Assembly (NCBI RefSeq): GCF_024331145.1
Contig: NZ_JANDJO010000008.1
Coordinates: 62,001-126,000 of the forward strand
Reading direction: 5' to 3'
DNA length: 64,000 bases
From: Shimia sp. CNT1-13L.2
GTDB lineage: Bacteria; Pseudomonadota; Alphaproteobacteria; Rhodobacterales; Rhodobacteraceae
Shown here piece by piece: positions 49,930 to 64,000 of this stretch. Numbering within the stretch: position 1 is the stretch's first letter; each line of letters opens with the position of its first letter. The notes under the pieces are model-generated. The model saw only the letters and a list, made by a program, of their open reading frames with translations. It did not search any database and was not told the DNA's origin. A program made the position numbers and the translations under genes.

Positions 49930-51960
49930 TCACTTCAATGGCCACGGCAGTGCGACAGCGTTTTGTAGAAGGCCCGGCGGAAAATCTCGGTTCAAAGCGC
50001 CAGCCATAAGGCACATGAAGCCGATACCCACGGCAGTGAGAAGCAGAGTTTTGCCCCACTCAGCCCCGGCGCGAACCCGGAAGAACGTAATCAGGAAACC
50101 GACCAAAGCGATGATGAAGCCAACAAACCAGGTGGCAACGATCAACCCGGCGAACCACGCCAGCGTAGACCAAAGACCATAGGGCGCATCCGCGTCTTCA
50201 CCCGCAACCTCCTTGTCGGCAAAGATACTGTCGCCTTCGGGGCGGCGCACCATCTGCACCATCAGGATCAGGCAACAGGCCAACGAGAAGCCTCCCACGA
50301 CAAGCGGGATAATCTTGTCGGTCATGTTGTAGTCCGGGATCGAATTGGCATTGACGAGAGCAAAAGTCAGGTAGCCCAAGATCACCAGAAGAAAGACGAG
50401 AGGCGCGCGTTTGGAGCCCGACTCAACCTCGCCTTCGGCCATGATCGACTTGGCCTGACGAATGCCAAGAACGACCGACGCCATCGTAATAATGATAAGC
50501 ACGATCACGATTGGGCTAAAGACATACTCAAGGCCTGCGTCAAAGCTCTTGCGGAAACGGAAGGACGCGATCTGAAAGGCTTGGTTGGTAAATTTTTCGA
50601 CCGGATTCGACAGGACGAAACCAATCAGAAACGCCGGGCGCGACCAATCAAAGCGGCGCAGGAAGATACCGATCAAGCCGATCGCGAATAGCGCCAGAAG
50701 ATCTTCGAAGTTCTGCCCCGACTGGAAAGCTGCAAAGCTAATGAGCATGAACAAGAAAGGAGCGAGATAGGTGAAGCGGATGGTGGTCAACTTGGCAATA
50801 CCACCAGAGGCTGCGATGCAGAGGATCGTGCCGACAACATTGGCCAGCGCCAACAACCATACGATAGAGTATGTGATGTCGAGATTGTTCTTGAGCATGC
50901 CGGGGCCGACTTCGATGTCGCCAGAACCAAGCAATGCGACGGCACCAATGAAAATCGCCATGGAACCCGAGCCCGGAATACCGAAAAGAAGTGTCGGCAC
51001 GAGACCACCGCCTTCTTTGGCATTGTTCGAACTTTCCGGCCCGATCACACCACGGACTTCACCCTTGCCAAAATTGGACTTGTCCTTGGTAGTCTGCACA
51101 GAATGACCATAGGCGATCCAATCGACAACTGAGCCACCGAGGCCGGGAATGATGCCGACAACAACCCCAATGATCGAGCAGCGTACCGAGAGCCAGATGT
51201 TGGCAAACCAATCCTTCACACCATCTAACCAACCGCCACCGAGCGAGGCACCTTTGGCAATCGAGCGATCCTGGCGCAGCAGTGAAACAATTTCGGGAAT
51301 GGCGAAGATACCGAGGCCGACAATCACCAGTTTCAAACCATCGGCGAGATATGGAATGTCATAAGATGCCATGCGCAAGCTGCCGCCCGCATCGGCCTCG
51401 CCAATTGTGCCGATCATGATACCCAGACCGGCTGCTGCAAGGCCCTTCAGGGGAATACGACCTGCAAGCACCGCAACCATGGACAGGCCAAGGATGGTAA
51501 TCATCAGCATTTCCGGGAGACCGAAAGCGAGAACGATCGGGCGCGCGACAAGGATGAATATGGTTAGGAAAGTGGCCCCTACAAGCCCACCGAAGAGTGA
51601 CGAGGAGAACGCGGCGGAAAGCGCGCGGGCAGCTTCACCTTTCTTGGCCATTGGGAAACCGTCGAGCACGGTCGCCTGTGACGCGGATGAGCCGGGTATG
51701 CCCATGAGCACCGAAGCAAAGGTGTCCGAGGTCGGAACCACGGCAACCATGCCGATCATCAGGGCCAAACCAAGGATCGGGTCCATGCCGAACATGAAAG
51801 GCAGGAGCAAAGAGAGCCCGGCAATGCCGCCAAGTCCAGGAAAGACCCCCACGGCCAGCCCCATTACGACGCCAAGAACCAGATAGCCAAGAACAACGGG
51901 TTGCAGGATCAGGGCCCACGCCTCACCGAGCGCAGGAAGAGCTGTGGCGAAAGCCTCCAT
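49930..51960 (-). CDS. Fused TctA-TctB tripartite tricarboxylate transporter permease
   Basis: A 676-residue inner-membrane protein. Residues 1 to about 500 match the large TctA permease, with GVFPGLGGIAGLSLLLPFMF near the start, PTSDTFASVLMGIPGSSASQ and GGSVVDWIAYGHSVQTTKD. From about residue 510 the sequence becomes TctB-like, with four helices (PLVFLLVILGYLTFALVNAN, KIIPLVVGGFSLACCLILMV and others). TctA and TctB are usually separate genes, so this is a natural fusion. Together with TctC it imports a carboxylic acid using the ion gradient. The start at 51960 has AAAGGCGG upstream. Confidence 0.92.
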   Translation of the reverse strand: MEAFATALPALGEAWALILQPVVLGYLVLGVVMGLAVGVFPGLGGIAGLSLLLPFMFGMDPILGLALMIGMVAVVPTSDTFASVLMGIPGSSASQATVLDGFPMAKKGEAARALSAAFSSSLFGGLVGATFLTIFILVARPIVLAFGLPEMLMITILGLSMVAVLAGRIPLKGLAAAGLGIMIGTIGEADAGGSLRMASYDIPYLADGLKLVIVGLGIFAIPEIVSLLRQDRSIAKGASLGGGWLDGVKDWFANIWLSVRCSIIGVVVGIIPGLGGSVVDWIAYGHSVQTTKDKSNFGKGEVRGVIGPESSNNAKEGGGLVPTLLFGIPGSGSMAIFIGAVALLGSGDIEVGPGMLKNNLDITYSIVWLLALANVVGTILCIAASGGIAKLTTIRFTYLAPFLFMLISFAAFQSGQNFEDLLALFAIGLIGIFLRRFDWSRPAFLIGFVLSNPVEKFTNQAFQIASFRFRKSFDAGLEYVFSPIVIVLIIITMASVVLGIRQAKSIMAEGEVESGSKRAPLVFLLVILGYLTFALVNANSIPDYNMTDKIIPLVVGGFSLACCLILMVQMVRRPEGDSIFADKEVAGEDADAPYGLWSTLAWFAGLIVATWFVGFIIALVGFLITFFRVRAGAEWGKTLLLTAVGIGFMCLMAGALNRDFPPGLLQNAVALPWPLK

Positions 51961-52044: not shown

Positions 52045-53133
52045 TTACTTCAGCTCGACGCCATAGGCTTCTTTGAGCCAGTTGGTGACGTAAACTTTGG
52101 CTGCGTCCGGCACCGAGGTTGCAGTGCCCAAAGCAGCGTTTGCCCCGTTACCGGTAAAGACCTTGTACTTGCCAACACGCTTGGATGAGATGTCGGCAAA
52201 GTCATCCCGCGCGACCACGGCTTCGAATGCCTTTGTGTAGGTATCAATCACATCCTGCGGAGTGCCAGCAGGCAGGAAGGCGAGTTTCTGCACCGGGAAC
52301 CCGGCAACGAAGAAGGCTTTCCACGCATCCCATGCTTCGCCCGAAGTCTCGCAGCCATCGGTAGCTTCACAGACTTCCTTGAAAGTCGGAATATCGGGGA
52401 AGGTCGGATCGCGCACGATATTGCTATCTTCATCCAATGCCCCCCAAGTCATCATCGCGACGGCCTGACCATTGGCAACCATTTCTGCGGATCCTTTGAG
52501 GTAACCGGATGAGGTCTGATAGTCGATGTTAGCTTCCCCTCGCTCGAACATCAGGCGGCCGTCACCGCGCCCCTTAATGCCAAAGACCGGCTCGACATTC
52601 ATACCAAGCATCTGCCACGCCAAGAGCGGCACGAGGTCGAGGCGGGTTGCCCCCTGCGAACCATAGATGAAGTCCGTCTCCTGTAGAGCATTGGCAGAGC
52701 CGTCAAACTTGGCGCCATCTTCAGCATTCAGATAGGCTACACCACCTGTTCCTGAGGCCATGACTGGGCTCCAGTCCTTGTACTCATAGCGCACGCGAGG
52801 ATCGTCGAGAAGATAGGGAAACTGGGTGGACCCTGACGAACCAAATAGCAGAGTGCCATCTTCGTGTTTCTGTTCCTGGAACCAATTAGCGCCCTTGGTC
52901 GATCCTGCACCCGGCATGAACTTGACGACGACCGTCGGCTGGCCGGGCAGAGCCTCACTCAGCAGCGGGGCGAAGAAGTTGGCCCATTTCGCCGATCCAC
53001 CGGTTTCGGAGAAGGGAATAACCCATTCAACGGTTTTGCCTGACAGATCCACATCGGCAACGGCCGGGGCTGCGACACCAGCAGCTGCAATCAGCCCTAG
53101 AACGGCTCGACGGGTGAGTTGGGTAACGGTCAT
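52045..53133 (-). CDS. tctC: Tripartite tricarboxylate transporter receptor TctC
   Basis: A 362-residue periplasmic receptor. The N-terminus MTVTQLTRRAVLGLIAAAGV has a twin-arginine-like signal and a likely cleavage site after AVA near residue 26. The receptor begins with VEWVIPFSETGGSAKWANFF, a variant of the usual TctC start, and continues with VVVKFMPGAGSTKGANWF. The ATG at 53133 has GGGAGG five bases upstream; the longer frame to 53298 has no support. First gene of the leftward operon tctC - fused permease - PrpF-like - universal stress, it is divergent from the two-component genes tctD and tctE. Confidence 0.9.
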   Translation of the reverse strand: MTVTQLTRRAVLGLIAAAGVAAPAVADVDLSGKTVEWVIPFSETGGSAKWANFFAPLLSEALPGQPTVVVKFMPGAGSTKGANWFQEQKHEDGTLLFGSSGSTQFPYLLDDPRVRYEYKDWSPVMASGTGGVAYLNAEDGAKFDGSANALQETDFIYGSQGATRLDLVPLLAWQMLGMNVEPVFGIKGRGDGRLMFERGEANIDYQTSSGYLKGSAEMVANGQAVAMMTWGALDEDSNIVRDPTFPDIPTFKEVCEATDGCETSGEAWDAWKAFFVAGFPVQKLAFLPAGTPQDVIDTYTKAFEAVVARDDFADISSKRVGKYKVFTGNGANAALGTATSVPDAAKVYVTNWLKEAYGVELK

Positions 53134-53241
53134 GAGATCCTCCCTGTTGACCAGACAATCACAGTCACGTCCTCCACGCCACCATGATTGAGATTCGAAA
53201 TGCAGGGTTGATTCCCCCTTCGATGTGACCAACATGGAACT

Positions 53242-53263
53242 CCAACCTTGCGCCAACCTTGCG
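53242..53263. repeat. Tandem 11-base direct repeat before tctD
   Basis: CCAACCTTGCG occurs twice in a row (53242-53252 and 53253-53263), with a further CCAAC at 53229. The 11-base period is one helical turn, as expected for tandem binding of an OmpR-type response regulator. It lies 10 bases before the tctD start codon and may be an autoregulatory or shared operator site. Confidence 0.5.
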
Positions 53264-53272
53264 GGAGCGGAC

Positions 53273-53944
53273 ATGAGAATAGTCATCGTCGAAGACAACG
53301 AAACCTTGGCGAGAGCGATTTCTTACCGACTGAAAGACCGTGGCCATGCCGCGGATGTCTTACATGATGGCAGCGATGCGGACCAGTTCCTCGCACAGGA
53401 AAGTGCCGATCTGATCGTCCTGGATATTAATCTGCCCGGGAAGAGCGGCTTGGATATTCTGCGCGCGCTTCGGGAGCGTGGAGACAATGCCCCCGTTATC
53501 CTGCTAACCGCACGCAGCGAGATCGAGGACAGGGTGACAGGTCTTGATCTGGGCGCGGATGACTACCTTGTGAAACCTTTCGAAATGGATGAGCTCGAAG
53601 CGCGCATCCGTGCGCTGTCACGCCGCAAGAACCTTGAGTTTGGTGCCAAGGACACTATCGGTGGGATTGAATTCGACAAGACCACGCGACATGTAACAGC
53701 GAACGGAGCACCGGTGGACATTCCCCGCAAGGAGCTTGCTGTTCTGGAGTGCCTTCTGGAAAGGCGAGGTCGAATTGTCTCCAAGGCGGATCTGACGGAT
53801 CATGTCTACGGCGTCGGGGCTGATGTCGACGATACGGCTGTCGAACCTCACGTATCACGGCTGCGGCGGCGACTGGTCGTTCATGGCATCGCCATCAAGA
53901 CGGCGCGCGGTCTGGGGTACATGCTTGAAGTGACAGCGCGATGA
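53273..53944 (+). CDS. tctD: Response regulator TctD (OmpR family)
   Basis: A 223-residue response regulator. The receiver domain has the acidic pocket IVEDNE (residues 5-10), the phospho-acceptor Asp51 in IVLDINLPGKSG, Thr79 in LLTARSE and Lys101 in YLVKPFE. A winged-helix DNA-binding domain fills about 125-223. The ATG at 53273 has GGGAG six bases upstream. It is divergent from tctC and overlaps the kinase gene (ATGA). The pair most likely activates the tctC operon when the substrate is present. Confidence 0.92.
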   Translation: MRIVIVEDNETLARAISYRLKDRGHAADVLHDGSDADQFLAQESADLIVLDINLPGKSGLDILRALRERGDNAPVILLTARSEIEDRVTGLDLGADDYLVKPFEMDELEARIRALSRRKNLEFGAKDTIGGIEFDKTTRHVTANGAPVDIPRKELAVLECLLERRGRIVSKADLTDHVYGVGADVDDTAVEPHVSRLRRRLVVHGIAIKTARGLGYMLEVTAR

Positions 53945-55308
53945 CCCGCGTCTACTCGCTGCGCCAAAGGCTCTTCTTCCTTATCCTGACGCCGCTGGTT
54001 CTGATGGCGGTCTTGCTTGGGTTTTGGCGCGTCTCCGTTGCACAACGCACTGCCGAGGAGCTGTTTGACCGCTCACTCCTGTCGGCGGCGCTCGCCATTT
54101 CGCGCGATGTGGCGATCTCTGGCGGAGACGCATTGCTCCCCTCCACGAGCGATCTGATCAGGGACGCAGCCGGTGGTGAAGTCTTCTATCACGCCACCGG
54201 CCCCGGCGGCATCTATGTGACGGGCTATGCCTACCCGCCCCCGCATGGCGAACCGGAGGGGGGAGACCTCTATGTACCGCTGTACTTCGAAGCAACATAC
54301 CGCGCAGAACCTGTCCGTGTTCTGCGCATCATGGAACGCGCGACCATCGATGGCATGACAGGCAATTCGACAGTCACGGTTTGGCAACGGATTTCCGACA
54401 GAAACGAATTTGCATCTCAGCTCGCCAAGCGTGCTGCCGCCCTGATGGGAGGGCTGCTTCTAACTCTGGCACTGGTCGTATGGTTCGCCGTGGCGCGTGG
54501 CCTGCGTCCACTCTTGGATCTGCAGGATGCAATCGCTATCCGGTCACCAGACGACCTGAGCCGCATCAAACGCCCCGTTCCAATCGAAGCACAGGGCATC
54601 GTAGCAACTCTCAATCGTCTGTTTGCAAGAGTGGAAGAGAGCATCTCCGCCCATCAGGTCTTTATTTCCAATGCCGCCCATCAACTCCGAAATCCAGCTG
54701 CAGCGGTCCAGTCCATGGCGGAATCTCTGCGCGATGCACCCTCCGATGAAATCCGAAACCAGAGAATTGAAGAACTTGTGACCGCTGCCCGCGGAGCAGC
54801 CCGCGTGACCGATCAATTGCTGTCGATGGATCGCCTGCGACAACCCATGCCTTCCACCCGCATGGAACAATTCGATCTTGCAGCGGAGATACAGAATGTC
54901 TGTGAAGATATGGCACCGGACGTACTCTCTCGGGGCCTGGCTTTCGAATGGGTTGCTCCGGATAGGAGCATTGAAGTGTGCGGGGACCGGATATTCATTG
55001 CTGAGGCGGTCAAAAATCTGATCGACAACGCGCTCAAACATGGGGGCGCTGAAATGACTTCCATAACTGTTGCATTGCGCCAACAGGACGAGACTGCACT
55101 GATTACGATCAGCGATGACGGAGCGGGACTTTCTCCGGATGACACAGAGCTTGCGCTCGGGCGTTTTTCTCAAGTCCAACCTTCCGATGGCAGCGGGCTG
55201 GGCCTGGCAATCGCAGCCTCAGTTGCAGAGAGGCACGGCGGAACGCTGTCTATAGACAGGGTGGCGATGGGCGCCAGCTTGACCATGGAGCTCATGCTTG
55301 CAACTTGA
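53941..55308 (+). CDS. tctE: Sensor histidine kinase TctE
   Basis: A 455-residue membrane sensor. A first helix (about 11-28) and a second (about 168-184) enclose a periplasmic sensor domain of roughly 140 residues. The HAMP-like linker is followed by the phospho-acceptor His247 in AAHQLRNP, a variant of the usual HELRTP that is common in TctE-type kinases. The ATP-binding domain has the N-box NLIDNALKHGG, the G1 box ISDDGAGLS and the G2 box GSGLGLAIA. The start overlaps the tctD stop. The ligand is probably the carboxylate taken up by TctC. Confidence 0.92.
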   Translation: MTRVYSLRQRLFFLILTPLVLMAVLLGFWRVSVAQRTAEELFDRSLLSAALAISRDVAISGGDALLPSTSDLIRDAAGGEVFYHATGPGGIYVTGYAYPPPHGEPEGGDLYVPLYFEATYRAEPVRVLRIMERATIDGMTGNSTVTVWQRISDRNEFASQLAKRAAALMGGLLLTLALVVWFAVARGLRPLLDLQDAIAIRSPDDLSRIKRPVPIEAQGIVATLNRLFARVEESISAHQVFISNAAHQLRNPAAAVQSMAESLRDAPSDEIRNQRIEELVTAARGAARVTDQLLSMDRLRQPMPSTRMEQFDLAAEIQNVCEDMAPDVLSRGLAFEWVAPDRSIEVCGDRIFIAEAVKNLIDNALKHGGAEMTSITVALRQQDETALITISDDGAGLSPDDTELALGRFSQVQPSDGSGLGLAIAASVAERHGGTLSIDRVAMGASLTMELMLAT

Positions 55309-55862: not shown

Positions 55863-56816
55863 TTATTGAGGTTCTACAACCAAGTCACCTGACGTCATGG
55901 CCTCGATTAGATTACCGACTTCGGCCACAACGTCTGCCGGGATGTCCGGGTGGAAAGACCCGATCCGCATGGCACGCTCATTGCCCATATCCGCCCGATA
56001 GAGCGCGCCTTCCAGTTTGCCGGCTGCTGCCAGCTCCAGGTACGACCGCATGTTGCCACGGACATCCAGGATGGCGGATTGCAGGATTTCCGGCCATTCG
56101 TTGATTGCATCCCGATAGATGCCGATGCCATAGACGCCTTTTTCCTGAACGGCCTGCATGGAGCCCAGCGTCGCGCTGTCCATTGTCGGCCAGACGACAT
56201 CGGCACCCTGGGAAATCTGGTTCAGGGCAGCCTCTTTGCCCTTGGCAATGTCATCCCAATCGCCCGTCCAGGTAACCAGAACACTGACGTCGGGATTGGC
56301 CGCCTTGGCGCCCGCTTCGTAGCCCGCAACCGTGTCGGTCGTGAACTTGAACTTCTGCGCCGCGATGATGCCGATGGTGCCTGTGTCGGACATGGAACCC
56401 GCGACATAGCCCATCAGATAGGCGATTTGGCTGAAATAGAAGTCCGCGTTGGCAATGTTGCCCTTTGTGCCCAATCCGTTGTTCACCATGAACATGGTAT
56501 CTGGGAAGCGGGTTGCGACGCGTTCCACTGCGTCCTGGAATTCTCCACCGTGGCCGATCACCAGATCATATCCCCGGCGCGCATAGTCGCTCAGGACTTC
56601 AATCTGCTCCGGCTGATGCACGCTTTCGGAAAAAGCGGCTTCAAAGCCGAGTGCATCCCCTGCCTGGGTGAGACCTTCGAAACCAGCCTGGTTCCAGCCA
56701 TTGTCGGAAATCGATCCGGGCATGACGATCGCGGCGCGCTCGATCCCTTCAGCCACCGCAGGCCCTGCCAACATCAGCGCTGTAAGCCCCGCCAATAGTT
56801 TGGATTTCAGTTGCAT
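55863..56816 (-). CDS. BMP-family ABC transporter substrate-binding protein
   Basis: A 317-residue periplasmic (or lipoprotein-like) receptor of the BmpA/PnrA family, whose members bind nucleosides or related bases. It has a signal peptide (MQLKSKLLAGLTALMLAGPA, cleavage near residue 22) without a lipobox cysteine. The motif IVMPGSISDNGWNQAGFEGL at residues 29-48 is typical. GHGGEFQDAVERVATRFPDT and FYFSQIAYLMGYVAGSM are conserved further on. The ATG at 56816 has GGGAGA upstream. It is the last gene of the leftward operon and is followed by a strong terminator. Confidence 0.9.
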   Translation of the reverse strand: MQLKSKLLAGLTALMLAGPAVAEGIERAAIVMPGSISDNGWNQAGFEGLTQAGDALGFEAAFSESVHQPEQIEVLSDYARRGYDLVIGHGGEFQDAVERVATRFPDTMFMVNNGLGTKGNIANADFYFSQIAYLMGYVAGSMSDTGTIGIIAAQKFKFTTDTVAGYEAGAKAANPDVSVLVTWTGDWDDIAKGKEAALNQISQGADVVWPTMDSATLGSMQAVQEKGVYGIGIYRDAINEWPEILQSAILDVRGNMRSYLELAAAGKLEGALYRADMGNERAMRIGSFHPDIPADVVAEVGNLIEAMTSGDLVVEPQ

Positions 56817-56905
56817 TGCTTTTCTCCCTTATTGGATATGCGTTGTCAGGGTGACGGGAGGATCGTGACGTGAAAAACGATGGTTTCTCACGTCACGGCT
56901 GAGAT

Positions 56906-57838
56906 TTATCGATGCTCTCGATCGTAGGGCAGCCCAACGCTGGCAGGTGCGCTGGCCTTGGCGCCAAGAGCCACCAGAGCGATCAGCGACGCCAGGTAAG
57001 GCAATATCAGGAAGAGCTGATAGGGTATCTCTGGCGACGTGAATTGCAGCTTGAACTGCACGGCATCACAGAAGCCGAAGAAGAGCGCCGCGCATATTGC
57101 GCCGACCGGCGACCAACGGCCCAAGATGATGGCCGCAAGCGCAATGAACCCTTTGCCAGCGCTCATCCCTTCCGCAAACACATAGACTTGCGACAAGACC
57201 AGATGCACCCCAGCCAGCGCCGCGAGAGCACCGCTGACTCCGATCGCGAGGAATTGCATGCGAAAGACGGGAACCCCAGCCAGATCCGCAGCCTTCGGGT
57301 TTTCACCAACGGCGCGCAGGTCCAGCCCCTTGTGGGATTTCATCAGCCAGAACCAGCCCACGATTGCCAAGCCGATCAATAGGTAGAACAGCGGATCCTG
57401 GGAAAACAGGGACGGTCCCACAACGGGAATATCCGACAGGAAGGGAATGTTGATCTGCGAGAACCCGTTCACCCGCGCCCCTCCGGCCTGAGCGCCGAAT
57501 ATCTGGCGGGACAGAAACGCTGTGAGACCCGCCAGAAGAAGGTTCAGCGCGATACCGCCAACCAGCTGGTTTATGCGCAGGCGGATAGACATATACCCAA
57601 GAAGCAAACCAGAAATCAGGCCGCAAACGATGCCGCACCCGAGCCCGATCATGGCCGAGCCCGTAGCGAAGGAACCTGCCGCGGCACCAAGCGCGCCGGC
57701 AAGGATCTGACCTTCGAGGCCGATGTTGTACAGCCCGCCGCGTTCCGCGATCACCCCACCAAGGGCAGCGAACGCAATTGGCGTCCCCAATCGGGCGGTT
57801 CCGGCAAGGATGTCGCCCAGCAAAACAAGATCAATCAT
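56906..57838 (-). CDS. BMP-type ABC transporter permease (second)
   Basis: A 310-residue inner-membrane permease of the BPD_transp_2 group with about eight helices. It has AFAALGGVIAERGGLYNIGLEG near residue 25 (shown in part: ALGGVIAERGGLYNIGLEG), a family hallmark. GENPKAADLAGVPVFRMQF is also typical of the RbsC-like sugar and nucleoside permeases. It begins three bases after the other permease and is followed by the receptor gene. The two permeases, the dual ATPase and the receptor make one complete importer. Confidence 0.9.
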   Translation of the reverse strand: MIDLVLLGDILAGTARLGTPIAFAALGGVIAERGGLYNIGLEGQILAGALGAAAGSFATGSAMIGLGCGIVCGLISGLLLGYMSIRLRINQLVGGIALNLLLAGLTAFLSRQIFGAQAGGARVNGFSQINIPFLSDIPVVGPSLFSQDPLFYLLIGLAIVGWFWLMKSHKGLDLRAVGENPKAADLAGVPVFRMQFLAIGVSGALAALAGVHLVLSQVYVFAEGMSAGKGFIALAAIILGRWSPVGAICAALFFGFCDAVQFKLQFTSPEIPYQLFLILPYLASLIALVALGAKASAPASVGLPYDREHR

Positions 57839-57841
57839 AGC

Positions 57842-58927
57842 CTATGCCTCTTTCTGTTGGCGTTGTGTCTGGCGGCGCAGTCGCAGGTTCTCCACCAGAC
57901 GTTTCAGAATGGGTTTTGACCCGTTTCGCGGTGCCACGAGAGCGGCCGCGACAAGAACCACGACAAGCCCCTCGACCACTTCGATGACGGAACTGTCGAC
58001 TCCGACGGCACGTTGCATCGTGCCTGCCCCGGCGGAGAGCCCCGCGAGGAAAAGCGCGGTCAACGGCGCGACAATTGGGTTAAGGGCCGCGAGAAAGGCG
58101 ACAACAATTCCGTCATAGCCGTAGCCATCGCTAAACAGGTGGAACAGGCGATACTTCAACCCGATCACCTCGATCGCGCCGGCCATGCCTGCAAGGCTGC
58201 CGCCGATCAACATGGCGCGGATGATGGTCTTTTTCTGATCGACACCGGCATAGGCCGCAGCGCGCGCATTGCGCCCCACCAGATCGAGTTGGAACCCAGA
58301 TGGCGTGAAGCGCAGCCAGAAATACAAGATGAGCGCCATCGCCAGCCCGAAAACAAAGCCCACATGGGTATCAGATTGCGGCATCAGAATAGGCAGGCGA
58401 TAGGCTTCCGAGACTTCATCGGAATAAGGGTATGGCGCGCCTTCAGCCAAGAGCGGCCCGGCCACGGCGTAGCTGACGATGTGAATCGCGATGAAGTTCA
58501 TCAAGAGCGTGACAATGACCTCATTCGTGCCTCGGTAGGCTTTGAGATACGCGGGGATTGCCGCCCAGAAGGCCCCGCCAACGGCGGCGGCGAGAAAGAT
58601 CAGCGGCACGCCCAAAACACCGGGCAAATCGGGGACCGCCAAAGCAAACACAGCGCCGAACAACCCGCCAATATAGATCTGCCCCTCGCCACCGATGTTG
58701 AACACACCAGCGCGCATCGGAATGATCACGGCCAGCCCAGCAAGAAGCATCGGCGAGGCTTTGACGAGGGTATTGGAGAAGCCCCAATAGTTCAGGAAGG
58801 ATTCCAGGAACAGAACCTTGTAGGCTTCAAACGGGTTGTGCCCGTCCAGCAGGATCAGCACACCGCCGACGCTCAGCGCCAACAACAAGGCAATCCCGAT
58901 CCGGCGTTGCATGGTAAATCTGTTCAT
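57842..58927 (-). CDS. BMP-type ABC transporter permease (first)
   Basis: A 361-residue inner-membrane permease with about nine to ten helices. It contains LVKASPMLLAGLAVIIPMRAGVFNIGGEGQIYIGG (shown in part: IPMRAGVFNIGGEGQIYIGG) around residue 70, typical of the family. The segment GRNARAAAYAGVDQKKTIIR is also conserved. Its start overlaps the ATPase stop (ATGA). It pairs with the shorter permease in a heterodimeric channel. Confidence 0.9.
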   Translation of the reverse strand: MNRFTMQRRIGIALLLALSVGGVLILLDGHNPFEAYKVLFLESFLNYWGFSNTLVKASPMLLAGLAVIIPMRAGVFNIGGEGQIYIGGLFGAVFALAVPDLPGVLGVPLIFLAAAVGGAFWAAIPAYLKAYRGTNEVIVTLLMNFIAIHIVSYAVAGPLLAEGAPYPYSDEVSEAYRLPILMPQSDTHVGFVFGLAMALILYFWLRFTPSGFQLDLVGRNARAAAYAGVDQKKTIIRAMLIGGSLAGMAGAIEVIGLKYRLFHLFSDGYGYDGIVVAFLAALNPIVAPLTALFLAGLSAGAGTMQRAVGVDSSVIEVVEGLVVVLVAAALVAPRNGSKPILKRLVENLRLRRQTQRQQKEA

Positions 58928-60453
58928 TGTACCTCCTCCGGCGCTGCGGTCATCAAGAGCCCGATGTCTTGAAGAGTTGTGTTTTCTGGATCGACAACAC
59001 CTGTGATCCGGCCAAAGGCCATCACGGCGACGCGGTCAGAGATGTCGAGCACATGTTCAAGTTCGGTGGAGATGTAGAGAACCCCCACACCGCTTTGGGC
59101 GACGGCGCGGATCTGGTTCTGAACAAACTCTGTTGCGCCGACATCAAGCCCTTTGGTCGGTTGTACGACGACCAAAAGATTGCGCGCGCGGGCCACTTCT
59201 CGGGCCAGAACGATCTTTTGTTGGTTGCCACCCGATAGGGCAGATGCGTTCAACTTCGGGTCCGGGGGCCGAATGTCAAAACCCGCAATCACGTCGTTCG
59301 CGATCTCGTGCATCGCACGCCGGGAAATCAGGCCACCAGACTTGAACCTGTCTTCGCCGATAGAGCGGAAGGCCAGATTTTCTTCGACGCTCAGCGACAG
59401 AACCAAACCTTCGGCATGGCGGTCCTCGGGCACGAAGCCGATGCCATCTTCTATGCGCGAAGCGATGGAGGCGCTGGATATCTCCGTACCATTCAGGAGG
59501 ATGGCACCGCGGGTCTGCCTTTTGAGACCGGTGATCACCTCGCTCAACTCGGTCTGACCATTGCCGTCGATCCCGGCGATGCCAAGGATTTCGCCAGCCT
59601 TCACCGTGAGGGTCACATCCTTCAGTATTTCCGCGCCGCCTGGATCGGTCAGGCAGACACCAGAGACAACCAGGGCGTCCCATTCAGAGATGGTGTCGTT
59701 TTGGGCCCTTTTGGCCTTGGGCGTCTCACCCGTTTCGCCGGACGGTGTTTCTCCCATCATAAGCGCTGACATCTGGGCCATAGGCGTGGTCGCAACCGGA
59801 AGAATGCCCTCGACACGCCCATGGCGCATAATCATGACGCGATCGGCAATTTCGCGGATTTCATCGAGCTTGTGGCTGATGAAAAAGACAAGACAGCCGT
59901 TGGCGACCAGCTTGCGCACCCCTTGCAGAAACGGCGCAACCTCGGTCGGGGCAAGCACGCTGGTAGGCTCATCCAGGATGAGGATCGATACATCGCGAAA
60001 CAACGCCTTGAGGATTTCCACCCGCTGCTTCATTCCCACGGGCATTTCCGCGACGCGGATGTCAAAATCCACGACAAAGTCAAAGTCCCTGCAAAGCTGG
60101 CGAATGCGCGCCCGCGCTTCGGCACCCCTCTTTGTGCTGGGCAAACCTATCAGAATGTTCTCTTCGGCGGTCATCGCGCCAACCAGGCTGAAATGCTGGT
60201 GGATCATGCCGATCCCATGCTCAATCGCCTTTGCTGGGCTGGTCACCGAAACAGGTGTTCCTCCCAGTGTGATTTCGCCGTTATCGGGCTGATACAATCC
60301 GATCAGAACGCTTGCGAGCGTGGTTTTCCCCGCTCCGTTTTCACCCAGAATCGCAATGCACTCGCCTTTTGAGGCCAGCAGATTGACGTCGCGCAATGCA
60401 CGCACAGCGCCAAACGACTTGTCGATGCCGGTGACTTTCAAAAATGGTTCCAA
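58924..60453 (-). CDS. BMP-type ABC transporter ATP-binding protein (two ATPase domains)
   Basis: A 509-residue protein with two ABC domains in one chain. The first (about 5-240) has an intact Walker A, ILGENGAGKTTLAS. The second (about 265-505) has a degenerate Walker A, GIDGNGQTELS, without the lysine, but a good signature ALSGGNQQKIVLAREVA. This layout is usual for RbsA-like and BMP importers. The start codon is TTG at 60453, because GGGAGG lies six bases upstream and homology begins there (EPFLKVTGIDKSFGAV). A TTG at 60483 has no ribosome binding site. It is the first gene of the leftward operon. Confidence 0.9.
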   Translation of the reverse strand: MEPFLKVTGIDKSFGAVRALRDVNLLASKGECIAILGENGAGKTTLASVLIGLYQPDNGEITLGGTPVSVTSPAKAIEHGIGMIHQHFSLVGAMTAEENILIGLPSTKRGAEARARIRQLCRDFDFVVDFDIRVAEMPVGMKQRVEILKALFRDVSILILDEPTSVLAPTEVAPFLQGVRKLVANGCLVFFISHKLDEIREIADRVMIMRHGRVEGILPVATTPMAQMSALMMGETPSGETGETPKAKRAQNDTISEWDALVVSGVCLTDPGGAEILKDVTLTVKAGEILGIAGIDGNGQTELSEVITGLKRQTRGAILLNGTEISSASIASRIEDGIGFVPEDRHAEGLVLSLSVEENLAFRSIGEDRFKSGGLISRRAMHEIANDVIAGFDIRPPDPKLNASALSGGNQQKIVLAREVARARNLLVVVQPTKGLDVGATEFVQNQIRAVAQSGVGVLYISTELEHVLDISDRVAVMAFGRITGVVDPENTTLQDIGLLMTAAPEEVQ

Positions 60454-60498
60454 GACAACCTCCCAACTTTCACCCAAATTCAAGAGAGGATGCCCCGT

Positions 60499-60532
60499 CT
60501 TCTCAAATTAGAAGATTTCACCTCACAGGTGA
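60499..60532. promoter_or_regulatory. Two LysR-type palindromes in the divergent promoter region
   Basis: CTTCTCAAATTAGAAG (60499-60514) is a 5-6-5 inverted repeat with a T-N11-A core, the classic LysR box. TCACCTCACAGGTGA (60518-60532) is a 6-3-6 palindrome immediately next to it. Both lie between the BMP importer operon and the LysR gene and could serve as its two binding sites. Confidence 0.55.
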
Positions 60533-60616
60533 GAATTTCGCCCACATGTGAACGGGCAATCGGGTTAGAGTAGAGTAACGAAACAACAACCCATCAGGAG
60601 AGCAAAGCCGCGCACC

Positions 60617-61543
60617 ATGGCGAAGATACCGTCGTTGAAAAGCATTCAGGCCTTCGAAGCGGCCTGCCGACATCTGAGCTTCAAGGATGCCGCCGATGAA
60701 CTATGCGTTACTCCGACGGCTATTTCTCATCAGATCAAATCGCTGGAGGATCAACTTGGGGTGCCCCTGTTTCACCGGCTGACCCGCGCCTTGAAACTGA
60801 CGGAAGATGGGGCCAACTACGCGCCGCACATCATAGAGGCCTTCAAGAACATCGAAGCCGCCTCTCTCGCGCTGGAAGAAGACGACCTCGCGGGCACTTT
60901 GACAATCTCGACAACCGGGTCGTTTGCAGCCAATTGGCTTAGCCCGCGACTGCGAGGCTTTTACGAGAAATACCCGGAGATTTCGGTAAGGGTTCTGTCT
61001 AGCGATCACTTGGTGGATTTCAAATCCAGCGATGTAGATGTCGCCATTCGGTACGGTCATGGCGATTACCCTGACAGCCATGTGGCCTGGGTCCTGAATG
61101 ACTGGGTGGCCCCTGTCTGTAGCGCCGAAAAGGCTGGGTCACTGGGTTCTCCAGAAGACCTCCTGAAGTCTCGTTTGATCGAATACCAATGGAGCGGATT
61201 TTCAGACGTGGATCCGAACTGGGAACGCTGGATGGATGCGGTTGGCTTACGAACCGGTGCAGTTGAGCCCTACGTAACCTACTCCGAGGAACACATCTGC
61301 TTGTTGACGGCAAGCGATGGTCATGGCGTGGCCCTTGTCAGCCTATTGGCCGCCGCACGTTTTCTGGAACGTGGCATGCTGGTCGCACCCTTTGACACGG
61401 CATTGAAAAACAAGAGCTATTTTCTTGTCTGCCCAGAGACTTACGCCAACCGTGCACGCGTGCGCGTGTTCCGCGAATGGCTCTTGGACCAGGCGGATGA
61501 ATTTCGCGACAGCGCCGTAGGTCGACGGTTTTTCGAAGACTAA
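60617..61543 (+). CDS. LysR-family regulator (GcvA-like) of the BMP/amidohydrolase cluster
   Basis: A 308-residue LysR-type regulator. It begins MAKIPSLKSIQAFEAACRHL, with the helix-turn-helix over LSFKDAADELCVTPTAISHQIKSLE (shown in part: AADELCVTPTAISHQIKSL). It belongs to the GcvA-like group. It lies divergent from the BMP importer and upstream of the DUF1989, amidohydrolase and deacetylase genes on its own strand, so it is placed to control both arms of the cluster. The start has AGGAG 14 bases upstream, rather far, but no better site was seen. Confidence 0.88.
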   Translation: MAKIPSLKSIQAFEAACRHLSFKDAADELCVTPTAISHQIKSLEDQLGVPLFHRLTRALKLTEDGANYAPHIIEAFKNIEAASLALEEDDLAGTLTISTTGSFAANWLSPRLRGFYEKYPEISVRVLSSDHLVDFKSSDVDVAIRYGHGDYPDSHVAWVLNDWVAPVCSAEKAGSLGSPEDLLKSRLIEYQWSGFSDVDPNWERWMDAVGLRTGAVEPYVTYSEEHICLLTASDGHGVALVSLLAAARFLERGMLVAPFDTALKNKSYFLVCPETYANRARVRVFREWLLDQADEFRDSAVGRRFFED

Positions 61544-61640
61544 AGAAGCCGCCACAATCTAATCCGTCGCTTGAATTTTTGTCATTTCTAAATTGCCGTG
61601 AAGCATGCGTTTCTGAGCCCCTAATCAGGAGTTCTTGCAC

Positions 61641-62324
61641 ATGCAAAATTTTGACCCTTCTCAACCCGATGGCTTCAATCAAACGATGGACAGCTCGGTC
61701 TCCGCAGACGGCCTCCCGATCATTGCAGAACGGTACACGGTACCAGCACGCAGCGGGGTCGCAGTGTATTTGGCCACTGGACAGACTTTGACAATCACCA
61801 ATCCGACCGGCTGGCAAGTCTGCGATTTCTGGGCCTTCAATGCCGCAGAGCTGCACGAATATATGTCCATGTCGCACGTGCATACGGACCTTCTGTCTGT
61901 TTTTCCAAAGGTTGGTGACTCGTTGGTCAGCAATCTTCGCAATCCGCTTCTGACGCTGACCCAAGATTCGTCGCCGGGAGTTCATGACACAACGATCGCC
62001 GCTTGCGATGCCAACCGGTACAAGCAACTTGGGGTGCCCCACTACCACGAGAACTGCGCCGACAACTTGAGGCAGGCCCTGCTTGTCATCGGGCAAAAAG
62101 CACCGCTTGTGCCAGCCCCCTTCAATCTTTGGATGAACGTCCCGGTTGCCCCTGATGGCAGCCTTGCATGGGCGGCGCCAGTGTCCAAACCGGGGGAAGC
62201 CATTACCTTCAAGGCCGAGATGCCAGTCTACGCCGTAATGTCGGCCTGCCCGCAGGATGTCACTCCGGTCAATGGGGATGAAGGCCAACCAAGCGCCCTG
62301 GAATTTGTCGTCCATGAAGGCTGA
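61641..62324 (+). CDS. DUF1989 (urea carboxylase-associated) family protein
   Basis: A 227-residue protein of the DUF1989 family, members of which are found near urea carboxylase, guanidine and purine-use genes. Visible features are TLTITNPTGWQVCDFWAFNA (about residues 48-67), SNLRNPLLTLTQDS, and the C-x-H-type stretch GVPHYHENCADNL (about 132-144), which may bind a metal. The biochemical role is not settled. The ATG at 61641 has AGGAG nine bases upstream; a TTG two codons earlier is possible. The stop overlaps the amidohydrolase gene, so the two proteins are made together. Confidence 0.86.
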   Translation: MQNFDPSQPDGFNQTMDSSVSADGLPIIAERYTVPARSGVAVYLATGQTLTITNPTGWQVCDFWAFNAAELHEYMSMSHVHTDLLSVFPKVGDSLVSNLRNPLLTLTQDSSPGVHDTTIAACDANRYKQLGVPHYHENCADNLRQALLVIGQKAPLVPAPFNLWMNVPVAPDGSLAWAAPVSKPGEAITFKAEMPVYAVMSACPQDVTPVNGDEGQPSALEFVVHEG

Positions 62325-63825
62325 CGGCGGTGACATATTTTCCGCCCGCTGGATCATCGAAGATGCGTTCCACAGTCACAAAGACTTTGGACTTTATGTT
62401 CTGGACGGCAAGATCGTTGGCCTGGCACCGCTGGTCGAATTGCAATCACGCTTTCCCGACGCAAGGGTGCACTCGGACACCAACACGGCGATCCTGCCCG
62501 GGTTCGTGAATGCCCACCACCATTGCTATGGGCTAAACCTGATCAACCAAGGGATACGGGATGACCTGTTGGAACCTTGGATTTTCGCCTCCGCAGGCGC
62601 GGCCGATATTGCGTCGCGCCTTACCACCGAATACGCGGCAATTCGCTTGCTGAAGAATGGGGTGACGGGTGTTGTGGATGCCTGCACCGCAGGTCAGACA
62701 GCGGCACTTGCCGAAGCGAAGATCAGGGACAAAATCGACGCATATAGTCGGCTTGGCTTGTCCTGTGCGATCGCACCGGGCGAGAGATGGCAAAACCAGC
62801 TTGTGCATCCAAACGGGCAAAGCCAGTCGTTTCTAAAGACCTTGCCAGAGGGCCTTCGGTGCAAACTGCAACGTCAGCACGTTGCGCGCTCACGTATTGA
62901 TCCGACAAATTTTGTGCAGCTTCTGTCTCGAATGCACGACGCATACAGGACTTTTGATTGCGCTGATGTGTGGTTTGGCCCCACAGCACCACATTGGACA
63001 GGCCAAGAGATCCTGCGCGACATCGCCAAGGCGGCCCGCGAAAGCGGCCAGCGTATTCACACCCACGCCGAGGAGTCTCGGCTACAACACCTGTCGGCCA
63101 CAGCCGGGCGTTCAAAGGGTGCCATCGCGCAATTGTGCGAAGCTGGCCTGATGACTGATGGCTTGTCCTTGGCGCATATGGTCTGGGCCAGTGAAAAAGA
63201 TCTGGCGCGCGTGGCCAAGGCGCGCGGGCATATCGTCTGCAATCCCAGCTCCAATTTGCGGCTACGCTCCGGCATTGCCCCCGCGCCATTGATGAAACGG
63301 ATGGGCATCAGCCTCGCCCTGGGGATGGATGGAACGAGCCTTGCGGGCGACGACGACATGTTCGCCGAAATGCGTTTGGCACAAAGCCTCTACTGGTCTC
63401 GTGACCCGGCAACCCCCAGCCTGACGGCGAAAGACGTTTTCGACATGGCCACCATGGGTGGCGCGCGCCTGATGGGCATGGATCACAGCATCGGAAGCCT
63501 GGCCATCGGCAAACGCGCAAACTTCGTGATCCTGTGTCTGGAGCGTCTTGAAGGGCCTTGGTTGGACCCCAGCACCGACCCGGTAGAGCTGCTGGTCAGT
63601 TCGGCCAAATCCACCGATATCCAGAGCGTTTACACCGACGGGCAACTGGCCGTTTCCCACGGTGAAATCAAAAACTGCGACGAAAAGAAAATTCTCCAAA
63701 ACATCACCGACGCCATGCAACAGGCCGCGGATCAAAGACTGAACGCCAGTGAATATCACGCCGTCAAATCCGCATTGCAGCGCTGGTATGACGATTGGCT
63801 GACCAACAACACCCCGCAATTGTGA
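62314..63825 (+). CDS. Amidohydrolase-superfamily deaminase/hydrolase (TrzN/ATZ-like)
   Basis: A 503-residue metal-dependent hydrolase of the amidohydrolase superfamily. The metal ligands are visible as GFVNAHHHCYG (about residues 64-74), RIHTHAEESRLQH in the middle, the histidine in LAHMVWASE and the aspartate in LGMDGTSLAGDDDMF. The order and the NPSSNLRLRSGIAP stretch fit the AtzA/TrzN, cytosine or guanine deaminase and 8-oxoguanine deaminase branch. It would deaminate or hydrolyse a nitrogen heterocycle. The ATG at 62314 lies within the DUF1989 gene end; the longer frame to 62257 is inside that gene. It is followed 15 bases later by a deacetylase-type gene. Confidence 0.88.
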   Translation: MKADGGDIFSARWIIEDAFHSHKDFGLYVLDGKIVGLAPLVELQSRFPDARVHSDTNTAILPGFVNAHHHCYGLNLINQGIRDDLLEPWIFASAGAADIASRLTTEYAAIRLLKNGVTGVVDACTAGQTAALAEAKIRDKIDAYSRLGLSCAIAPGERWQNQLVHPNGQSQSFLKTLPEGLRCKLQRQHVARSRIDPTNFVQLLSRMHDAYRTFDCADVWFGPTAPHWTGQEILRDIAKAARESGQRIHTHAEESRLQHLSATAGRSKGAIAQLCEAGLMTDGLSLAHMVWASEKDLARVAKARGHIVCNPSSNLRLRSGIAPAPLMKRMGISLALGMDGTSLAGDDDMFAEMRLAQSLYWSRDPATPSLTAKDVFDMATMGGARLMGMDHSIGSLAIGKRANFVILCLERLEGPWLDPSTDPVELLVSSAKSTDIQSVYTDGQLAVSHGEIKNCDEKKILQNITDAMQQAADQRLNASEYHAVKSALQRWYDDWLTNNTPQL

Positions 63826-63840
63826 CAGAGGAGCAAGACC

Positions 63841-64000
63841 ATGCAGAAGAAGATTATTTGGCCAAACGGCGCGCAATGCGCCTGTGCAATCACCTTTGAT
63901 ATAGATGCGGACAGCCTGATCCATATCGCAAAGCCGGTCGACGGGCATGATCGTCTCTATCCAATCTCCATGGGGCGCTACGGGCCAACAGTTGCCATCC
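63841..64000 (+). CDS. Polysaccharide deacetylase/PuuE-type hydrolase (3' end missing)
   Basis: The first 53 codons of a gene cut by the window edge. It starts at an ATG with GAGGAG 11 bases upstream. The visible part has CACAITFDIDADSLIH, a NodB-like first motif in which TFD is followed by D two residues later, and the segment ISMGRYGPTVAI. This combination is typical of the polysaccharide-deacetylase-fold enzymes related to PuuE allantoinase and other ureide or imide hydrolases rather than of sugar deacetylases. Position after the amidohydrolase supports a role in opening or trimming a nitrogen heterocycle. The substrate is not known. Confidence 0.75.
   Translation, partial: MQKKIIWPNGAQCACAITFDIDADSLIHIAKPVDGHDRLYPISMGRYGPTVAI

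Follow-up and report, generated by a model that had tools for sequence, protein, structure and literature searches.

The unit analysed here is a ten-gene putative catabolic cassette at the end of a 64,000-nucleotide window of Shimia sp. CNT1-13L.2, which covers positions 62,001–126,000 of contig C19 (NZ_JANDJO010000008.1) in a genome of 4.14 Mb; the DNA past the window edge was read as locus L003. The unit comprises a four-gene importer, a LysR regulator, a DUF1989 protein, an amidohydrolase (AH), a polysaccharide-deacetylase-fold (CE4-fold) hydrolase (PSD), an amidase (AMD) and an azoreductase-type flavoprotein (NQO), and extends beyond the window to about position 66,751.

The minus strand encodes a complete BMP-type ABC importer, with a BMP-family (PnrA-like) solute-binding receptor (55,863–56,816; PF02608, 172 bits), two permeases (56,906–57,838 and 57,842–58,927; PF02653, 147.4 and 114 bits) and a double ATP-binding subunit (58,924–60,483, where the open reading frame (ORF) coordinate is a TTG start and a candidate only; PF00005 in two stretches). 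Divergent from the importer, and on the plus strand like all subsequent genes, is a LysR regulator of the GcvA kind (60,617–61,543; PF00126 and PF03466; 307.3 bits for the NCBIfam GcvA subfamily model, cut-off 288). It is followed by the DUF1989 gene (61,641–62,324, with a TTG start at 61,635 also possible; PF09347, 158.5 bits, cut-off 27), by AH, a cog0402-type deaminase candidate (62,314–63,825, in an ORF that opens at 62,257; PF01979, 124.1 bits), and by PSD (63,841 to about 64,728, lying in the window up to 64,000; PF01522, 56.3 bits). Outside the window, AMD belongs to the amidase signature family (about 64,725–65,996; PF01425, 231.3 bits) and NQO is a flavodoxin-type oxidoreductase (about 66,092–66,751; PF02525, 99.1 bits).

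From the receptor to AH, every named gene was an intact ORF at its position with Pfam matches above their cut-offs, which agrees with the initial annotation of the importer genes, the divergent LysR, DUF1989 and AH from the nucleotide sequence. Because the N-termini of relatives match at ATG 62,314, this codon is the likely AH start, and AH then overlaps the DUF1989 ORF by 11 nt; the translational coupling of both genes proposed earlier is therefore real. The AH–PSD gap is 15 nt, PSD and AMD overlap by 4 nt, and the AMD–NQO gap is 95 nt. The suspicion that the set continues past the window edge also proved correct, as the DNA beyond 64,000 adds the rest of PSD, then AMD and NQO. A conserved LysR box was sought across the close loci, which are too alike to tell.

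PSD had been called a PuuE-type hydrolase, and PuuE is its best NCBIfam model, yet it scored 66.8 bits, and 65.4 bits when the genome was searched, where 424.6 would be needed. The genome search also gave xdhA (655.6 bits) and puuE (507.3 bits), both over cut-off and about 4.2 kb apart on contig C11; the earlier statement that standard purine genes are absent thus holds for the window and fails for the genome. PSD residues Asp22, Asp24, His96, His100 and His231 were invariant in 26 sequences. In the alignment, Asp24, His96, His100, Asp22 and His231 correspond to HpPgdA Asp14, His86, His90, Asp12 and His247, respectively, and PuuE has Trp in place of the ligand His100. According to excerpts of the HpPgdA report, Asp14, His86 and His90 hold the metal, Asp12 and His247 are located at the water, and PuuE does not bind the metal (PMC3084791). 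The score, the retained metal ligands and the genuine puuE elsewhere in the genome contradict PSD as PuuE and with it an allantoin role, so the PuuE assignment was dropped.

The relation of PSD to cyclic imidases was evaluated using the A7 profile, which gave 139.1 bits on 3QBU and 234.2 bits on 3RXZ; a close relation to the imidase/HpPgdA subfamily was not found. PSD is a sister of the imidase group and not an established member of it. Both kinds of protein are encoded on the Leisingera methylohalidivorans plasmid NC_023146, where an HpPgdA relative (530.8 bits on 3QBU) lies about 7 kb from a module like the cassette. On this plasmid, the close HpPgdA relative stands beside an amidase and an NCS1 transporter (L043:20142–23936), which is likely a true cyclic-imide locus.

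In AH, His87, His89, His270, Glu273, His307 and Asp358 were invariant in 17 sequences and follow the cog0402 pattern of HxH, His, His and Asp; we take these residues to have metal-site roles. The best NCBIfam model scored 194.9 bits against a cut-off of 540, and no equivalog cut-off was reached. An AlphaFold2 model from 17 sequences (mean pLDDT 84.7) was nearest in fold to adenosine-type deaminases, followed by triazine hydrolases and isocytosine deaminase, with 16–24% identity among the 50 best fold matches. In line with the earlier proposal of an undescribed unit, AH is therefore without a match to a characterised enzyme. Other PSD loci contain a cytosine deaminase (CDA) unrelated to AH, which matches yeast cytosine deaminase (FCY1) at 1e-40; four sequences were inspected and all retain the HGE and PCMMC motifs, and these motifs are presumably functional in CDA. 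AH and CDA never occurred in one locus (0/87) and are alternatives in PSD loci. Since CDA stands in place of AH in other PSD loci, a deaminase role of AH is hinted at.

The DUF1989 protein shares 47.7% identity with PDB 3ORU over 218 residues, and the DUF1989 proteins of the L043 and L119 modules are 85.4% identical to 3ORU. Cys124, Cys141 and Cys205 (numbered in the 229-residue ORF from 61,635) were conserved in 98% or more of 58 sequences. These cysteines correspond to the zinc cysteines named for trimethylamine N-oxide demethylase (Tdm; PMC12560246). Carboxyguanidine deimination (PMC11271267) is a known reaction of the DUF1989 family, as is that of the Tdm domain. An assignment of the window protein as the carboxyguanidine deiminase CgdAB was rejected, with scores of 97.4 against 284.7 bits and 49.9 against 205.95 bits for the urea-amidolyase-associated models UAAP1 and UAAP2. 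A second, distant DUF1989 gene with 25% identity is located on contig C1 of the same genome (L001; L005:9390–10280).

Lys57, Ser132, Ser133 and Ser156 of AMD were invariant in seven sequences, and the Lys, cis-Ser and Ser are assumed to play the catalytic roles of the amidase signature. AMD profile matches include allophanate and biuret hydrolases alongside general amidases. NQO is close to azoreductase 1 (2e-59).

The association between importer and enzymes was assessed in the ten closest genome loci. Joint conservation of importer and hydrolases, the test set beforehand, was found in this close clade: BMP receptor, ATPase and enzymes occurred together in nine of the ten (L047–L053, L055 and L056), and the tenth, L054, is a 5.6-kb contig ending before the importer. 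Elsewhere the importer is swapped while the enzymes stay, so that the conserved unit suggested by the initial annotation exists in the closest clade and not beyond it. In a second AH clade (L038, L039, L057, L058 and L060–L064), the enzymes were kept, no BMP receptor was found, and a branched-chain-type ABC system was present in eight of nine loci. PSD loci without AH carried NCS1 permeases (13/80, 12 of them with NQO), a BMP importer (L042, L080 and L107) or PotABCD (L043 and L119). As the importer type varies among loci, a single receptor ligand for all cannot be assumed. The window receptor scored 120.3 bits against the NCBIfam putative B6 receptor model, far below the cut-off of 400, a result that assigns it no ligand. 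An importer-first control (E up to 1e-70) detected the receptor in the window genome and in one other of 394 genomes (45% identity), where the 3.9-kb locus as viewed covers receptor and ATPase only; the control therefore says little on linkage.

The borders of the unit were determined by a BLASTN comparison of positions 50,001 to about 74,900 (window numbering) with nine related loci, which gave one block of similarity, from BMP to NQO. In L047–L053 (one Leisingera, four Ruegeria, one Roseobacter and one metagenome-assembled genome), the block showed 87.5–88.9% identity over 10,970–11,307 bp, with 55,576 as the earliest and 66,881 as the latest limit and no further match above 150 bp at E 1e-20. 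L055 and L056 showed 73.5–76.7% identity across nearly the same span. Because the similarity covers almost exactly the 11 kb of the unit and ends on both sides, importer and enzymes move as one cassette. On the importer side, the flanks past the block are mostly 1.7–2.0 kb (only 0.2 kb in L048), and since the loci extend so little beyond the block, the border there rests on short flanks. Moreover, AH was absent from all 24 same-genus genomes (E up to 1e-30) and present in three of 394 family genomes, including the window genome (E up to 1e-60). Together, block limits and patchy AH occurrence form the pattern of a transferred cassette. In our view, the stretch between about 55,580 and about 66,880 is rather probably a horizontally mobile catabolic cassette through which a small amino-substituted N-heterocycle serves as nitrogen source.

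The neighbouring genes were named from ORF or translation reading. Transposase-like ORFs and a tyrosine integrase directly follow the cassette (L003:12230–18722, window about 67,230–73,722), the integrase lying at about 67,230, some 0.5 kb past NQO and outside the window; no tRNA that could serve as integration site was found in L003. Just before the cassette, a TctC-like periplasmic protein is divergent from a two-component regulator pair (52,045–55,308).

To place the cassette in a wider context, 84,980 species genomes were scanned with the PSD alignment. At least 584 pattern matches were obtained, 511 of them encoding a relative, and the best 80 loci were retained together with flanks of up to 10 kb. 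Partners were counted within 6 kb by profile labels, as gene-cluster labels split the amidases; 25 of the 80 loci end at a contig edge within that distance. The partners were DUF1989 (48), NQO (32), PotD-type receptor (23), CDA (21, one a 90-residue fragment), AMD (19), BtpA (19), AH (18), phosphoribosyltransferase (15), NCS1 (13), uracil phosphoribosyltransferase (UPRT; 6), URC1 (5), URC4 (5) and the arginase family (5). Fisher tests on the partners treat related loci as independent and were not used as proof. In a PSD tree of 87 rows, partner labels clustered (21 changes, compared with 54.9 in shuffles), with 31 of 83 inner branches weak. DUF1989, AMD and NQO accompanied AH in 17 of the 18 AH loci found through PSD. 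Among NQO loci with complete flanks (n = 30), DUF1989 was present in all and AMD in 18; among the corresponding CDA loci (n = 13), DUF1989 was present in six and NQO in none. Fourteen of the 80 loci fell outside any group, 11 of them at contig ends. Selection by AH instead of PSD gave DUF1989, PSD and AMD flanking AH in all three AH genomes among the 394, a weak control, given that the PSD set already contained these genomes.

Several loci had further features. A BtpA-family gene is paired with an adenine-phosphoribosyltransferase-like gene beside a PotD-type importer in L066, L072, L074, L076, L079, L085, L090, L091, L099, L103 and others. On the plasmids of L038 (6799–15354) and, at the same place, L039, SnoaL-like, VOC, short-chain dehydrogenase and ADP-ribosylglycohydrolase genes precede DUF1989–AH–PSD–AMD on the same strand and are perhaps extra route steps. 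In addition, a contig titled Oceanobacillus (L118) carries an alphaproteobacterial-type PSD locus, and the title is probably wrong.

Gene content, linkage, borders, kept residues and the AH/CDA alternation are direct observations, from which we infer each reaction, the step order and the substrate. The BMP-type importer would take up a nucleobase-like compound. AH would then split an exocyclic amino group from a ring amidine by hydrolysis to yield NH3 and a cyclic imide or ureide, whose ring PSD, as a metal-dependent relative of cyclic imidases, would open at an N–C(=O) bond. AMD might hydrolyse the resulting half-amide or ureido group with release of more NH3, DUF1989 might hydrolyse a remaining amidine, guanidine or carbamoyl C–N bond, and NQO might serve as the reductase of a ring double bond or of another intermediate. 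LysR would control both arms. On balance we favour this function, that is, uptake, deamination, ring opening and ammonia release from a small N-heterocycle; an N-heterocycle, imide or ureide is a likely substrate, in keeping with the N-heterocycle or ureide unit named in the initial annotation.

Several results weigh against this scheme. L069 contains DUF1989 and AH with a weak AMD match and no NQO, on a contig whose end lies 4.8 kb past PSD, and 12 of the 30 complete-flank NQO loci lack AMD within 6 kb. NQO is without a firm role and is the weakest part of the model. A riboswitch search of L003 1–12,500 (E up to 0.5) gave no match, nor did any other direct clue to the substrate emerge. Furthermore, PSD shares only 26.8% identity with a true HpPgdA-type relative, the protein of L043, so that imidase-like action of the window PSD is putative.

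The substrate classes considered were pyrimidines, cyclic guanidines and pyridine-derived imides, with purines and allantoin disfavoured. In a narrower form of the proposed route, which is possible but doubtful, a cytosine-, isocytosine- or modified-pyrimidine-type substrate would give a uracil-type product, whose breakdown AMD, NQO and DUF1989 would complete in this cassette and the URC-type genes in some of the other loci. The FCY1-type CDA that adjoins PSD in 21 of the 80 loci, the nucleobase-type transporters BMP and NCS1, and a RutR-like regulator beside L121 (200.9 bits, below the cut-off of 368) are consistent with this. Five CDA/PSD loci contain URC1–URC4–UPRT-type genes, and a sixth contains UPRT alone. 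However, uracil as product would leave PSD unexplained, AH is no nearer to cytosine and isocytosine deaminases than to others, and no DUF1688 (URC4) match was obtained in 19 of the 24 searched PotD/CDA-type genomes or in the window genome. DUF1688 was detected in three of 23 other module genomes; each of the five PotD/CDA-type genomes with DUF1688 carries it in the PSD locus itself. As 14 control genomes also gave no match, the absence is to be read against these positive genomes. A uracil link for all PSD loci was accordingly left unsupported by the DUF1688 search. In L071, L072, L074, L076 and L113, the genes after PSD and yeast-type CDA are a GTP-cyclohydrolase-II-like gene, DUF1688 and UPRT, which we take to be the URC set of yeast; these loci are candidates for a cytosine-to-urea route in bacteria.

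A creatinine- or 2-amino-imidazolinone-type ring is an unlikely substrate. It would be deaminated by AH or CDA before opening, the opened guanidino acid would be split elsewhere by an arginase-family enzyme, and DUF1989 would be a deiminase. By family, the PSD partners act on amidine or guanidine carbons (the deaminases, DUF1989 and, in 5 of 80 loci, the arginase family), and the allophanate and biuret hydrolase matches of AMD agree with such a substrate, but agmatinase-type genes are common, two of the five arginase-family genes are on the other strand, and nucleobase-type transporters fit less well. As a separate observation, L070, L075, L117, L125 and L126 show a third type of PSD neighbourhood, made up of an arginase-family gene and two short-chain dehydrogenases; two of these loci also have DUF1989 and a Rieske oxygenase.

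A pyridine-derived imide, which we regard as quite unlikely, would imply a nicotinate-like route. NQO would be its reductase, PSD the hydrolase that opens a glutarimide-type ring and AMD the enzyme that cleaves the half-amide, the last two acting like HxnM and HxnN. The imidase-then-amidase order and a flavin reductase described for A. nidulans in portions of PMC9304392 and PMC8478523 favour it, as does the Leisingera plasmid, on which a close HpPgdA relative, accompanied by an amidase and an NCS1 transporter, is separated from the module by about 7 kb. The cassette, however, contains no pyridine-ring hydroxylase or monooxygenase, and DUF1989 and AH have no place in such a route. Destruction of a toxic heterocyclic antimetabolite is an improbable alternative to nutrition; the patchy occurrence (AH in 0/24 same-genus genomes), the adjoining integrase and the azoreductase-type enzyme would suit it, whereas a dedicated importer and several successive C–N hydrolases suit nutrient use better. 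Purine or allantoin degradation with PSD as PuuE is barely credible, since the best-model match to PuuE is outweighed by its low score, the Trp at the position of ligand His100 and the genuine puuE and xdhA together on contig C11.

A broader, still tentative proposal is that PSD and DUF1989 may together form the centre of a bacterial pathway, undescribed yet widespread, that degrades amino-pyrimidine-type or cyclic guanidine rings. AH and CDA would then be interchangeable as deaminases, the pathway would end either with amidase plus azoreductase or with URC-type genes, and DUF1989 would carry out a new C–N bond reaction. If true, it would supply a testable function for a DUF1989 branch of solved structure (3ORU) that has had none, add a second ring-opening subfamily alongside the imidases and PuuE, and point to a nitrogen source possibly common to roseobacters, rhizobia and a SAR116 bacterium. 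The bacterial operon-like loci that join yeast-type CDA with URC-type uracil genes are a further outcome. A literature search, in which coverage of subscription journals was small, turned up no paper on this gene combination.

Compared with known systems, AH shares its fold and metal-site residue pattern with TRZ/ATZ-type and 8-oxoguanine/isocytosine deaminases of cog0402, but its identity to them is low and all equivalog cut-offs are missed. CgdAB belongs to the same DUF1989 family, whereas the window protein lies below both model cut-offs and has a deaminase and a ring hydrolase as neighbours. The URC-type uracil genes (GTP-cyclohydrolase-II-like, DUF1688 and UPRT) are found in the PSD locus of five relatives and are absent from the window cassette and genome. 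PuuE allantoinase is of the same superfamily as PSD and opens the ring of a small cyclic N-compound, but PSD is far below the PuuE cut-off and retains metal ligands that PuuE lacks. Polyamine importer genes lie near HpPgdA relatives, according to the excerpts of PMC3084791, as they do in the PotD-type PSD loci found here. A close parallel is provided by HxnM–HxnN of Aspergillus nidulans and the imidase of Pseudomonas putida YZ-26. As described in portions of two reports, HxnM opens 3-hydroxypiperidine-2,6-dione, the amidase HxnN releases nitrogen, and HxnM is 64.2% identical to a P. putida imidase homologue and structurally like HpPgdA (PMC9304392, PMC8478523). Both systems combine a CE4-fold hydrolase with an amidase-signature amidase and keep the metal-site residues; the window PSD belongs to a separate subfamily, DUF1989 and a deaminase are added, and the fungal route, as far as those portions describe it, starts from nicotinate. 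The best reading is that the cassette works like this imidase/amidase ring-opening route, supplemented by a deaminase and a DUF1989 step.

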